Source: Byssovorax sp. (lineage in GTDB: Bacteria; Myxococcota_A; Polyangia; Polyangiales; Polyangiaceae). From it: a stretch of DNA of 64,000 nt. Positions 51,959-59,535 of the stretch are shown here, one piece after another. Both the position numbers and the translations under genes were made by a program. The notes beneath the pieces are model-generated. The model saw only the letters and a list, made by a program, of their open reading frames with translations. It did no database searches and had not been told where the DNA came from. The DNA lies in the NCBI GenBank assembly GCA_025362495.1, contig JANYGI010000178.1:1-64000 (forward strand), in the 5' to 3' direction. Every line of letters starts with the position of its first letter. Position 1 is the first letter of the stretch.

Positions 51959-54097
51959 ATGAATCTCCGGCAGCTCGGCGCGCCCGCGGCCCTCATCCTT
52001 TTGATGGCCGCCGCTTTCGGCTTTCTCACCAAGGCAATCCCGGCCGAATACGTCTCGAACCTGTTCTGGGTCCTCGGGATCGTATCGATCGTATCGCTCG
52101 TCTACGTCGCGAGCCAGATGCCCCAGAAAGGGCCGGCGATCTCGCTCGGACCGCTGGTCGACGCGCTCAAGGCCGCCGGCCGCGGGAAGAAGCCGCGCGT
52201 GCCGGAAGACGCCGCGGGGGAGCTGGCCGAGGCCTACGACGAGATCGGCCGCGTCGCCAAGCGCAGCGCCGAGCTGACCGAAGAGGTCGAGCGCCTCGAG
52301 CAGCTCGGGCCGGGCACGCCGTCGATCGACGTCACCGCCCTCGTCGAAGCCGCGGGTCGCGCCGCGCAGGGCGAACGCGTGCGGGCACCGTCGGGCGCAT
52401 CGAGCGACGTCGCGCAGCTCTACGGCGAGCTCGCGCAGCTCGGCGAGCGCGTGAGCGAAGCCGAGCGCCGCGAGAAGACGGGCAAGGTCGATCTCCCGGC
52501 CATCATCGACGCCGCGACTCGCGCCGCGCAGGGCGAGCGCGTCCGGCCGCCGTCGGGCGCGTCGAGCGACGTCGCCGAGCTCTACGGCGAGCTCGCGCAG
52601 CTGGGCGAGCGCATCACCGAGGCCGAGCGCCGCGAGAAGACGAGCAGGATCGATCTGCCGTCGATCATCGACGCCGCGGCCCGCGCTGCGAAGGGCGAGC
52701 GCATCCGCGTCCCCGCTGGCGTGACGGCCGACGTGGCCGAGCTCTACGGGGAAATCACCGCCCTCGCCGAGCGCGTCGTCGACGCCGAGCAGCGCGAGAA
52801 GGCCCGCCGCAGCGAGCTCGCGGCCGCCGCGCAGGTGATCGAGGACTCGTTCCCGCGGCTCAACGAGGCCGTCACCAACGTGCTCTCGTCGAGCGAGCAG
52901 GCCACGGGGCACATCCGCGAGATGACGACGTCGCTCGCCAACATCTCGCAGTCGATCGAGACGCTCGCGTCGAGCGCGGAAGAGTCGAGCTCCAGCATCC
53001 TCGAGATGACGGCGACCAACGACGAGACGGCCGAGCAAGTCGGCGAGCTCGGGTCGAGCGTGCGCGAGACGGTGTCGTCGATCGAAGAGATGGCGTACTC
53101 GATCCGCGAGGTCGCCAAGAACGTCGACGCGCTCTCGCTCACGGCGGAAGAGACCAGCTCGTCGATGAACGAGATGGATGTCTCCATCGATCAGGTGCAG
53201 TCGAACGCCAACGAGACGGCGCGCCTCTCCGAGGAGGTCGCGACCGACGCCGAGAAGGGCGCCGAGGCCATTCTCAAGACGATCGGCGAGATCTACCGCA
53301 TCAAGGAGTCGAGCCAGGAGGCCGTGGCCGTCATCTCGAACCTCGGCTTTCGCATCGAGGCCATCGGGCAGATCTTGCAGGTCATCGACGACGTCGCCGA
53401 GCAGACCAACCTGCTCGCGCTCAACGCCGCGATCATCGCCGCGCAGGCCGGCGAGCACGGCAAGGGCTTCGCCGTCGTCGCCGACGAGATCAAGGATCTC
53501 GCCGAGCGCGCCGGCGGCAGCACCAAGGAGATCGCCGAGCTGATCAAGACGATCCAGAGCGAGTCGAAGAACGCCATCGCCGCCGTCGAGCGCGGCGCGC
53601 ACAACGTCGATCGTGGCGTCGAGGTCTCCAACGAGGCCGAGCGCGCGCTCAAGAAGATCCTCGAATCCTCGCAGAAGTCGACCAACATGGTCCGCGCGAT
53701 CGCCCGCGCCACGGTCGAGCAGGCCAAGGGATCGAAGCAGGTCACCGACGCCATCGGGCGCATCGCCGAGACGGTGCAGCAGATCGCGGCGGCGACGGCC
53801 GAGCAGGCGCGCGGCTCGGAGCTGATCATGAAGAGCGCCGAGAAGATGCGCACGATAACGCAGCACGTGGAGCGCTCCAGCCAGGAGCAAGCGCGCGGCG
53901 GACGCCAGATCACCGGGGCCATCGAGCAGATCTCGAACATGGTCAACAGCCTCAACGGCGCGCAGCGCACGCAGATGCGCGGCGGCGAGCAGCTCATCGA
54001 CACGGCGCGCCGCATCGAGGAGTCGGGGCGCAATCAGGAGCAGGCCGTGCGTCAGCTCATGACCGCGTCGGAGCGCCTGCGTCGCGCTGTCGCCTGA
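51959..54097 (+). CDS. Methyl-accepting chemotaxis-like protein with tandem HAMP-like units
   Basis: 712 residues. Two membrane helices (about 7-27 and 32-52) are joined by a very short loop, so there is no periplasmic sensor. Four HAMP-like units follow: a diverged one at about 63-116, then three at 124-177, 178-231 and 232-285 with an exact 54-residue period (each with DLPxIIDAAxRAAxGERxR ... [16 protein letters not shown]). The signalling domain is typical, with [29 protein letters not shown]-type hairpin, but the C-terminus carries no CheR/CheB pentapeptide. No che genes are adjacent. It probably senses something in the membrane or cytoplasm. Confidence 0.88.
52328..52813 (+). repeat. Three 162-bp tandem repeats encoding HAMP-like units
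   Basis: Three direct repeats, exactly 162 bp (54 codons) in period, inside the chemoreceptor gene. A more diverged copy precedes them (about 52145-52306). The close match of the second and third copies suggests recent duplication or gene conversion. Confidence 0.8.
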
Positions 54098-56015: not shown

Positions 56016-56170
56016 GCGACGTCCCCGAGCCACCGGCGGCGCGCCTCTGCGCAACCGGTGAGAGGCCTGCGTTATCGAGGTTGTCGTCGTCGGGCCAAGA
56101 AAGAGGTCGCTTCCGACGCGTGGTTCCGATCCGGGCGCACCCGGGATACCCTCATGGTCCGGGGTGCTCC

Positions 56171-59074
56171 ATGATGTTGCGGTCGTCTTCGGCTTATTTC
56201 TTTCGATGCTTCACGCTGCTCTCGGCTCTCCTGTGGCTCGTCGCGCTGGGCGCGGGCTGCAGCCGATCGAACATCGATCCCGCTCCAGTCGGGCAAGGCG
56301 GGAGCGGCGGCTCCGTCACGACCACGACCACGGGAGCCACGATGTGCGCGTGCGGCGACGGCGTCTGCCAGGCTGACTGCGGCGAGAGCCCGGTGACGTG
56401 CCCGGGCGACTGCGGCTCGACCTGCGCCTGCGGTGACGGCATCTGCGCGCCGAGCTGCGGCGAGACCCAGCAGAGCTGCCCCGCCGACTGCGGCCAGGGC
56501 TGCGTCTGCGGCAATGGCATCTGCGAGCCCCAGTGCGGCGAGAACCCCAGCACCTGCAAGGACTGCGGCCAGGCCTGCGTCTGCGGCAATGGCCTCTGCG
56601 AGCCCCAGTGCAACGAAGGCCCGGACACCTGCCCTCAGGACTGCGGCGCTTGCCCGCCGAGCTTCTTCTGCGGCGACGGCGTCTGCATGTCCCAGTGCGG
56701 CGAGAACCCCAGCACCTGCCCGAAGGACTGCGGCGGCGGCTGCTTTTGCGGCAACGGCGCCTGCGAGCCCCAGTGTGGCGAGAGCTCGAGCACGTGCCCG
56801 AGCGACTGCGGCCCTCAGTGCATCTGCGGCAACGGGAAATGCGATCCCGGGTGCGGTGAAGACCCCAGCAACTGCCCCTCCGACTGCGGCGGACCGTGCC
56901 TGTGCGGCGATGGCATCTGCTCGTTCGCGTGCGGCGAGACGACGAACAGCTGCCCCGGCGACTGCGGCGGAGGGTGCCAGTGCGGCAACGGCGTCTGCGA
57001 GCCCCAGTGCAACGAGAACCAGAACACCTGCGCCGTCGACTGCCCGCAGGCGTGCCTCTGCGGCAACGGAGTCTGCCAGCCCCAGTGCGGCGAGACCAAG
57101 ACCAGTTGCCCCGGCGACTGCAACGCGCCGTGCGTCTGCGGCGACCTGCTCTGTCAGCCTCAGTGCGGCGAGACCCAGAACAGCTGCCCCAACGACTGCG
57201 GCTTCCCCTGCGTGTGCGGCGACGGCAAATGCCAGCCCCAGTGCGGCGAGAGCTCGATCAAGTGCCCTGCCGACTGCGGCCCGCAGTGCCAGTGCGGCGA
57301 CGGGAAATGCGATCCGGCCTGCGGCGAGACGGCGAACACCTGCCCGCAGGACTGCAATCAACCGTGCCTGTGCGGTAACGGCACCTGCCAGCCGATGTGC
57401 GGCGAGAACCAGAACAACTGCGCCGCGGACTGCGGCGGCGCCTGCGTGTGCGGCAACGGCGTCTGTCAGCCGATGTGCGGCGAGACCTCCGCGACGTGCC
57501 CCGGCGACTGCGGCCTGGTCTGCGTCTGCGGCGACAACAACTGCCAGCCCATGTGCGGTGAGACCCAGAGTAGCTGCCCGCAGGATTGCGGGATGGGCTG
57601 CGCCTGCGGCGACGGCAAATGCCAGGCGGGCTGCGGCGAGAACACCCAGTCGTGCCCGGCCGATTGCGGAAAGCCCTGCCTCTGCGGCAACGGCCTCTGC
57701 CAGCCCCAGTGCGGCGAGAGCTCGAGCGCCTGCCCGGCCGACTGCGGCCCCACCTGCCAGTGCGGAGATGGCCAGTGCAACGCCGCCTGCGGCGAGAACC
57801 CGAGCACCTGCACCCAGGACTGCGGCCAGCCCTGCATCTGCGGCAACGGCCTCTGCCAGGCCGGCTGCGGCGAGACCAACGCCGCGTGCCCGCAGGACTG
57901 CAATCAGCCCTGCGTCTGCGGCAACGGCGTCTGCCAGCCCGGCTGCGGCGAGTCGAGCGCCTCGTGCGCGGCGGACTGCGGCCCGGCGTGCGCCTGCGGC
58001 AACGGCACCTGCCAGCCCGCGTGCGGCGAGAGCCCCAGCACCTGTCCTCAGGACTGCGCCCAGGCCTGCGCCTGCGGCAACGGCACCTGCCAGCCCGCCT
58101 GCGGCGAGTCGGTGCTGAGCTGCCCGAGCGACTGCGCCGTGGCCTGCGCCTGCGGTAACCAGCTCTGCGAGACGGCCTGCGGCGAGACCTCGGCGTCCTG
58201 CCCGGGCGACTGCCCCTCGTGCCAGTGCGGCGACGGCAAGTGCAACCTCGCCTGCGGCGAGAACCACACCACCTGCGCCCTCGACTGCCCGGCCTCGTGT
58301 GCCTGCGGCGACGGCGTCTGCGCCCCGTCCTGCGGCGAGACGGTCCTCAACTGCGCGGTAGACTGCTCGACGACGTGCCAGTGCGGCAACTTCAACTGCG
58401 AGCCCCAGTGCGGCGAGGACACCTCGACCTGCCCGCAAGACTGCGGCTTCGCCTGCGCCTGCGGCGACTCCTTCTGCGACCCGAGCTGCGGTGAGACCAC
58501 CGCGACCTGCCCGCAAGACTGCCTCCAGAAGTGCACCTGCGGCGACTTCTTCTGCGACCAGAGCTGCGGAGAGAACGCGTTCTCCTGCCCGGGCGACTGC
58601 GCGCAGGCCTGCACCTGCGGCAACTTCATGTGCGAGCCGCAGTGTGGAGAAGACCAGATCTCCTGCCCCGGCGACTGCGGCATGGCCTGCGCTTGCGGCG
58701 ACGGCACGTGCAACCCGAGCTGCGGTGAGACCCCGCTCTCGTGCCCCGGCGACTGCGCCAAGATCTGCGCCTGCGGCAACATGTTCTGCGAGCAAAACTG
58801 CGGCGAGAACAGCAGCAACTGCCCCTCCGACTGCGGCTCCAGCTGCCTCTGCGGCGACGGCATCTGCGCCCCGGGCTGCGGCGAGAGCGGCATGAGCTGC
58901 CCGGCCGACTGCGCCCCGAGCTGCCAGTGCGGCAATGGTCAGTGCCAGCCGGCCTGCGGCGAGACCCCGTTCTCCTGCCAGCCGGACTGCTTCGGGCTCT
59001 GCATCTGCGGCAACATGCTCTGCGAAGCCAGCTGCGGGGAGAACCCGTTCAGCTGCCCCAACGACTGCCCGTAG
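56171..59074 (+). CDS. Lipoprotein with 35 six-cysteine repeats
   Basis: 967 residues. A signal peptide ends at the lipobox LGAGC (Cys30). From C59 to the end the protein is 35 consecutive copies of a roughly 26-residue unit, CxCGnGxCxPxCGExxxxCPxDCGxx, with cysteines at unit positions 1, 3, 8, 12, 19 and 23 (about 210 cysteines in all, some units lack one). Several units replace CGE by CNE or shift a Cys. Regular disulphides would make a long rigid fibre anchored in the outer membrane; metal binding is the other option. The unit resembles small bacterial Cys-rich repeats of myxobacterial surface proteins, but the copy number is striking. It has no obvious partner gene. Confidence 0.85.
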   Translation: MMLRSSSAYFFRCFTLLSALLWLVALGAGCSRSNIDPAPVGQGGSGGSVTTTTTGATMCACGDGVCQADCGESPVTCPGDCGSTCACGDGICAPSCGETQQSCPADCGQGCVCGNGICEPQCGENPSTCKDCGQACVCGNGLCEPQCNEGPDTCPQDCGACPPSFFCGDGVCMSQCGENPSTCPKDCGGGCFCGNGACEPQCGESSSTCPSDCGPQCICGNGKCDPGCGEDPSNCPSDCGGPCLCGDGICSFACGETTNSCPGDCGGGCQCGNGVCEPQCNENQNTCAVDCPQACLCGNGVCQPQCGETKTSCPGDCNAPCVCGDLLCQPQCGETQNSCPNDCGFPCVCGDGKCQPQCGESSIKCPADCGPQCQCGDGKCDPACGETANTCPQDCNQPCLCGNGTCQPMCGENQNNCAADCGGACVCGNGVCQPMCGETSATCPGDCGLVCVCGDNNCQPMCGETQSSCPQDCGMGCACGDGKCQAGCGENTQSCPADCGKPCLCGNGLCQPQCGESSSACPADCGPTCQCGDGQCNAACGENPSTCTQDCGQPCICGNGLCQAGCGETNAACPQDCNQPCVCGNGVCQPGCGESSASCAADCGPACACGNGTCQPACGESPSTCPQDCAQACACGNGTCQPACGESVLSCPSDCAVACACGNQLCETACGETSASCPGDCPSCQCGDGKCNLACGENHTTCALDCPASCACGDGVCAPSCGETVLNCAVDCSTTCQCGNFNCEPQCGEDTSTCPQDCGFACACGDSFCDPSCGETTATCPQDCLQKCTCGDFFCDQSCGENAFSCPGDCAQACTCGNFMCEPQCGEDQISCPGDCGMACACGDGTCNPSCGETPLSCPGDCAKICACGNMFCEQNCGENSSNCPSDCGSSCLCGDGICAPGCGESGMSCPADCAPSCQCGNGQCQPACGETPFSCQPDCFGLCICGNMLCEASCGENPFSCPNDCP
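56345..59071 (+). repeat. About 35 tandem 78-bp repeats
   Basis: These are the DNA units behind the Cys-rich repeat protein, about 78 bp each, diverged at the third and variable positions but with strong shared words such as CTGCGGCAACGG and GACTGCGGC. A few units are 3-12 bp longer or shorter. The high identity makes copy-number change by recombination likely. These are not CRISPR repeats, because the whole length is coding. Confidence 0.85.
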
Positions 59075-59535
59075 CCCCCGCGACACCCTCGCTCCTCGAG
59101 CCGAGCCCGCTCTCCTGCGCGGGGAGCCGGGCTCGCTCGAAACCCCTCTTCACTCCCCGTCACCTCGAGATCCGGATTTTCGTGCGCGCGCACGGCGGGA
59201 TCTCTCGCCCCTCTTTCACGATCTCCATCGCGAGAACGGAGAAGCGTCGATCGGCGTTGCGAGCGCGTCCGTGATCGATCACGCTACGCGGCTTATGCGC
59301 TTCGCTCGTCCACGATACAATCGCGGCAACCCGCGCTGCCACGAACCAGGACGCGAGCCCTCCGCGCGAGGACGTGGATCTGCGAGCGTGGCGAGCCCAC
59401 GGGCGCGGCGCCCCGGGGGCCTGGGCGTCGGCCCGCGATCAGACGGCCGAGGAGGCGAGTCGCGCCGCCGCCGCGATGTTCTGATCACGTCGGCGCCCGC
59501 CCGGGGCCATTCACCCCGGGCGCCCTCTTCCCACC
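59075..59535. other. Non-coding gap, 461 bp
   Basis: This lies between the Cys-repeat gene stop and the serS stop. No ORF with coding character, tRNA or repeat was found. It contains the hairpin at 59498-59522 and otherwise plain GC-rich sequence. Confidence 0.5.
59498..59522 (-). terminator. Hairpin after serS
   Basis: CGCCCGGGG (59498-59506), a 7-nt loop, CCCCGGGCG (59514-59522): a perfect 9-bp stem 14 bp past the serS stop on the minus strand. There is no T tract. Confidence 0.55.

Follow-up and report, generated by a model that had tools for sequence, protein, structure and literature searches.

The cysteine-rich repeats of the TraA stalk are thought to form a disulfide-stiffened support that presents a recognition domain (PMC3325183, PMC12045341). 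The repeat modelled by TIGR02232 (myxo_disulf_rpt) is also short and cysteine-rich, and it is abundant in exported proteins of the genome studied here. Its consensus likewise has a start of the C-G-[DN]-G type. The LNR (PF00066) and LDL-receptor class A modules are small too, each with six cysteines and three disulfides. LNR sequences look similar to the repeat described below (G-x-C-D..C....C..D-C), and their disulfides pair C1-C5, C2-C4 and C3-C6. We compared these systems with a gene found in the window, that is, the whole stretch of 64,000 nucleotides that was analysed.

The repeat array and its gene

Parsing of the predicted protein into units (Table 1) confirmed the first-pass annotation, which had read it as 35 copies of a 26-residue unit with six cysteines, amounting to about 210 cysteines. 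The array accounts for 210 of the 212 cysteines, exactly six in each of the 35 units. The unit length is 26 residues in 30 of the 35 units, a few others being shorter by one or two residues and unit 5 reaching 30; the 78-bp period was recovered independently by TRF. The unit consensus is C1-x-C3-G4-[DN]5-x-x-C8-x-x-x-C12-x-E14-x4-C19-x-x-D22-C23-x3. Whereas loop and linker positions are variable, the cysteine frame is fixed: no unit in the window has lost a cysteine, and each of the 30 standard-length units keeps E14 and D22. Cysteine makes up 22% of the mature protein, which is also strongly acidic (105 Asp and Glu versus 13 Lys and Arg, net charge about -92). The protein ends one residue past the last cysteine and has no C-terminal domain. 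An ATG at 56174 provides an alternative start. Another repeat in the window lies inside a gene for an MCP signalling domain (51959-54097), where a 162-bp (54-aa) unit occurs in almost three copies at 52337-52801.

Table 1. Features of the repeat lipoprotein gene, in window coordinates.
Feature	Position	Strand	Basis
Predicted lipoprotein gene, 967 aa + stop, 35 six-cysteine units	56171..59074	+	ORF, unit parsing, orthologs
Predicted signal peptide, residues 1-29, lipobox L-G-A-G then Cys30	56171..56257	+	sequence, orthologs
Predicted lipid-anchor Cys and Gly/Ser/Thr-rich tether preceding the array	56258..56344	+	sequence
Array of 35 units; unit 1 starts at 56345, unit 35 at 59000	56345..59071	+	unit parsing
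Unit 5, 30 aa, wider spacing between Cys 1 and Cys 2 (CPPSFFCGDG)	56651..56740	+	unit parsing
Unit 24, one residue short	58145..58219	+	unit parsing, ortholog comparison

The lipobox at residues 26-30 was recognised as a lipoprotein signal, and in each full-length ortholog a lipobox in the corresponding position precedes C-[GS]-R-[ST]. The earlier description of the product as a lipoprotein thus appears sound, as far as a sequence signal can tell. In the loci that we collected (56258-56269 in the window; L008-L050), C-[GSA]-R was present at the lipid cysteine of 20/27 repeat lipoproteins versus 2/38 other lipobox candidates (Fisher p 5e-9, uncorrected for relatedness and with a rough selection of candidates). 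This motif is possibly a lipoprotein sorting signal.

The entire gene is spanned by an antisense open reading frame of 1004 aa (56072-59086, minus strand), which we considered as a rival gene. This frame is open in three orthologs (L009, L010 and L014), but it is broken in four others (L007, L008, L011 and L012), whereas the sense frame is conserved. In the closest pair of orthologs (L009 and L010), dN was 0.02 and dS 0.16, giving a dN/dS of about 0.14. The sense frame is therefore under purifying selection and, since orthologs of 31-37 units also exist in other genera, it is not a chance open reading frame. The GC3 of the sense frame is 0.94, and the antisense frame is probably a by-product of this high value.

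Searches for a known family or fold

No model of Pfam or NCBIfam exceeded its cut-off, either with the whole protein or, in hmmscan, with 54 three-unit segments. Of the 89 places in the genome found with TIGR04201 (Myxo_Cys_RPT), the model of the TraA repeats, most were sub-threshold and none lay within 56171-59074; hmmscan of the protein and of the 54 segments gave no match to this model. For TIGR02232 (cut-off 20.8 bits), none of the 142 genome places is listed in the repeat gene; over 100 of them are above the cut-off, and this genome invests heavily in cysteine-rich exported repeats. PF00066 gave one sub-threshold place elsewhere in the genome and none in the repeat gene. Neither a TraA head domain (PA14-like or variable) nor a MYXO-CTERM tag was found in the repeat protein, and plasmid records gave no match. 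The literature on the motif or on such lipoproteins yielded just TraA-related work and a remark on high-cysteine proteins of Peribacteria. The view that no named family is involved is supported by the Pfam, NCBIfam, TIGR04201, TIGR02232 and PF00066 results, and a well-studied repeat family of known function was also looked for among PDB sequences and folds, with no match accepted.

Two groups of matches were rejected. PDB sequence matches to zinc fingers (ZNF568, E 1.8e-6; Aart) follow cysteine composition and C2H2 spacing; they include no single strong stretch, and the protein bears an export signal. The sub-threshold Pfam matches to TIL, Keratin_B2_2 and RET_CRD, far under their cut-offs, likewise reflect cysteine composition.

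AlphaFold2 models of units 12-17 and of three units reached pLDDT values of 66 and 69 and pTM values of 0.28 and 0.37. Both gave, with low to middling confidence, the same local picture, in which each unit has short helical turns at its P-x-C and P-x-D-C, and Foldseek returned no PDB match for either the six-unit or the three-unit model.

Orthologs and age of the array

We scanned the contigs of the genome and 108 genomes of the family for orthologs. Full-length orthologs were found in other genera of Polyangiaceae, with 31 units in L007, 35 in L009, L010 and L011, 36 in L008 and L014, and 37 in L012. Between species, the number of units is nearly fixed (35 and 35 within one genus; 36, 36 and 35 within another). 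Even irregular units recur: long-spaced units like unit 5 are also present near the N-terminal end of L008, L009 and L014, and a short unit occupies the place matching unit 24 in L012 (unit 26), L008 and L011 (unit 25) and L009 (unit 26). An extra cysteine-rich stretch (about C-x-x-G-C-C...A-C-G-x-x-G-x-x-C) lies between tether and array in L007, L008, L009 and L011; it is missing from the window gene, L012 and L014.

When the window array was aligned unit by unit with that of L012, the order of units scored z = 13.9 over shuffled order, aligned units being 65% identical versus 54% across all unit pairs. With the other orthologs the window array gave z = 4 to 8, and most pairs gave z = 4 to 16; the weakest signal was that of L007 with L008, L011 and L014 (z about 1.9). 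At the DNA level, the units of the window are on average 67% identical (69% for adjacent units, maximum 82%). This conserved order and the modest DNA identity indicate, on sequence comparison, that the array is old and fixed, with none of the look of a fast-changing VNTR. Conserved order together with the recurring short unit further indicates that many array positions carry their own ancestry, so that the array would already have been a long one before these genera diverged. The expectation of the first-pass annotation that the 78-bp units should vary in number between strains found no support: the units are divergent, and their number and order are conserved across genera (a between-species comparison).

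These data also bear on a neutral expansion of tandem repeats without a set function. The patchy presence of the window type of array, found in about 6 of the 48 family genera searched, would fit such a process. However, the conserved order and number of units, the low dN/dS and the intact cysteines of all window units make it barely credible.

Three unit types on a common frame

A related protein was found in 47/183 genomes of the order at E 1e-20, and the unit profile matched in 47/377 genomes of a phylum sample at E 1e-15. Reading these related proteins, we distinguished three unit types built on a common frame, C-G-[DN]-x-x-C...E...C-x-x-D-C. Type A has four cysteines. Type B has six, with E-x-C after the glutamate and a cysteine after D-C-G. 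Type C, the type of the window, also has six, one before C-G and one before G-E. Compared with the window protein, four-cysteine repeat lipoproteins of Myxococcota (L020, L022, L025 and L034) have the same frame without the extra cysteine pair, and six-cysteine 'GETC' lipoproteins (L002, L042-L046 and L063) have the same frame with the extra pair placed elsewhere. In the searches made in the order and the phylum sample, type C was restricted to the family of the window protein. Relatives of the sister types are mostly lipoproteins with C-[GSA]-R at the lipid cysteine, and some end in a C-terminal cysteine-rich cap. One of them, L002, is a paralog from the same genome (C42:61357-62166) with nine type-B units and such a cap; a similar cap is present in L043 and L046.

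Selecting type-C units by cysteine spacing as the sole criterion, we found G4, D/N5, E14 and D22 in 232/232 units, and 97-100% of type-A and type-B units retain the corresponding G, D/N, E and D. Because these residues are as fixed as the cysteines, a calcium site in each unit is possible on sequence grounds. The units could accordingly be calcium-dependent modules resembling LNR or LDL-receptor class A, forming a fibre or adhesin that binds calcium or is stiffened by it. This reading is compatible with a disulfide rod but makes calcium the working principle. It is favoured by the invariance of D/N5, E14 and D22 beside the cysteines in all three types and by the net charge, and six-cysteine LDL-receptor modules keep three disulfides within each module (PMC4500599). 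However, neither a Notch/LNR match nor any other calcium module of Pfam or the PDB was found at the gene, position 5 is Asn, a weaker ligand, in 64% of type-C units, and the predicted structures are too poor to reveal a site. We regard calcium as the working principle as a possibility worth keeping in mind, without expecting it.

Cysteine pairing

The three types differ in where the additional cysteines stand, and we surveyed 972 junctions between neighbouring units, drawn from 52 ORFs. About 40 junctions do not fall under the pairing pattern, their units being odd or their linkers longer than nine residues. A linker cysteine was present in 576/576 junctions in which the previous unit has the type-B cysteine (C17-type, 265 junctions) or the next unit has the type-C cysteine (C12-type, 311 junctions), and in 0/396 of the remaining ones. 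At the ends of arrays, a preceding cysteine was found in 10/10 first units of type C and a following cysteine in 16/16 last units of type B. This placement indicates that each pair of partner cysteines belongs to one unit. Contrary to the simple rule, two of the ten type-C last units have a following cysteine, and truncated loci may lie behind these two exceptions. Mixed arrays (L059, L061, L062, L063 and L067) contain both states in one protein and never break the rule, which is thus not only a matter of shared descent. Moreover, whichever way units are matched with each other, the number of cysteines after the anchor cysteine is even in 28/28 complete relatives (p 7e-9 if these were independent, although some, such as L009 and L010, are close).

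Paired gain and loss together with even counts point, in the simplest reading, to a protein in which every cysteine is in a disulfide, with about 105 bonds in the window protein and a C1-C12 bond in each unit. Of the two roles first proposed for the protein, this pattern favours a disulfide-stiffened rod over a metal-storage fibre, as thiolate clusters need no pairing. In the latter role, the cysteines would stay reduced and hold Cu, Zn or Cd in metallothionein-like clusters, for thiol-based storage or buffering. The cysteine content and the single C-x-C pair per unit would suit such a fibre. Against it stand not only the pairing but also an export route that leads through an oxidising compartment, the genome being rich in DsbA-like proteins (eleven Thioredoxin_4 matches), the tie between the cysteine frame and the invariant non-thiol G, D/N, E and D, and the absence of metal-handling genes from the five neighbouring genes scanned. 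Metal storage therefore seems very improbable. One DsbA-like (Thioredoxin_4) match lies about 4.6 kb past the end of the window (G000:C220:68579-69004, minus strand), a linkage that is perhaps due to chance.

Proposed function

We favour, with some confidence, a lipoprotein anchored in the outer membrane, with 35 disulfide-locked modules making up all of its mature part and forming a rod or stalk that is stiff and strongly acidic. The protein would be exported, lipidated at Cys30 and sorted to the outer membrane, as suggested by the lipobox and by serine, not aspartate, at position +2. DsbA-like enzymes would then oxidise it in the periplasm, forming three disulfides within each unit: C1-C12, as co-occurrence suggests, and two others among C3, C8, C19 and C23. 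The locked modules, joined by linkers of 3-4 residues, would extend from the membrane as a protease-resistant fibre, presumably exposed at the surface. The invariant [DN]5, E14 and D22 would stabilise each module, perhaps by coordinating calcium. A rod is suggested by the disulfides within units, the short linkers and precedent, not by the AlphaFold2 models, which would also allow compact or flexible arrangements of the units. The conservation of an ordered array across genera fits a rod of set length.

Lacking a head domain, the protein would have the rod as its working part, serving as a spacer, a coat or a scaffold contact within the envelope or from cell to cell. Neither a head nor a binding domain was found in the protein, nor a conserved neighbour beside it (none of the six neighbouring genes was found near orthologs L007-L011), so these give no pointer to a cellular role. 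Alternatively, the array could be a binding surface, the variable residues between the cysteines contacting a partner, in a surface adhesin or recognition receptor. Loop and linker positions do vary on a fixed frame, and TraA, itself a cysteine-rich myxobacterial surface protein, serves cell-cell recognition (PMC3325183). Yet no separate variable or lectin domain was found with Pfam or NCBIfam, and the dN/dS of close orthologs indicates constraint, not diversification; we consider an adhesin or receptor unlikely.

More tentatively, and at somewhat less than even chances, the protein may exemplify an undescribed repeat fold, with some 105 disulfides per chain, a fixed acidic (perhaps calcium) site every 26 residues and the form of an outer-membrane rod of defined length, in which the third disulfide was added in three ways (none, C1-C12 or C17-linker) to a two-disulfide frame across Myxococcota. 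The three variants of one frame amount to a clean natural experiment in disulfide architecture, in which sequences suffice to read the bond pairing, and a description of the family, absent from Pfam and NCBIfam, should be of use to annotators. Should the protein form a rod, it would stand out among exported bacterial proteins for the density of its cross-links. In that case it would also represent a new class of envelope component in bacteria known for complex social behaviour, and it might serve as a source of very stable rods whose length can be chosen.

Comparison with known systems

Among small six-cysteine modules, the repeat may differ from LNR in its pairing, since co-occurrence suggests a bond between the first and fourth cysteines, which would not fit the LNR pattern. 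The TIGR02232 model has 38 positions, whereas the units here mostly have 26 residues. TraA of Myxococcus xanthus (TIGR04201) is likewise a myxobacterial envelope protein with tandem cysteine-rich repeats. However, it has nine repeat elements in place of 35 units, and its cysteine spacing is different; moreover, TraA carries a PA14-like or variable head and a MYXO-CTERM tag, whereas the repeat protein is headless and has an N-terminal lipid anchor. The repeat protein would thus work like the stalk of TraA, but it is no TraA and presents no head. The family is unnamed, and it belongs to a kind already known, the cysteine-rich repeat surface proteins of myxobacteria.
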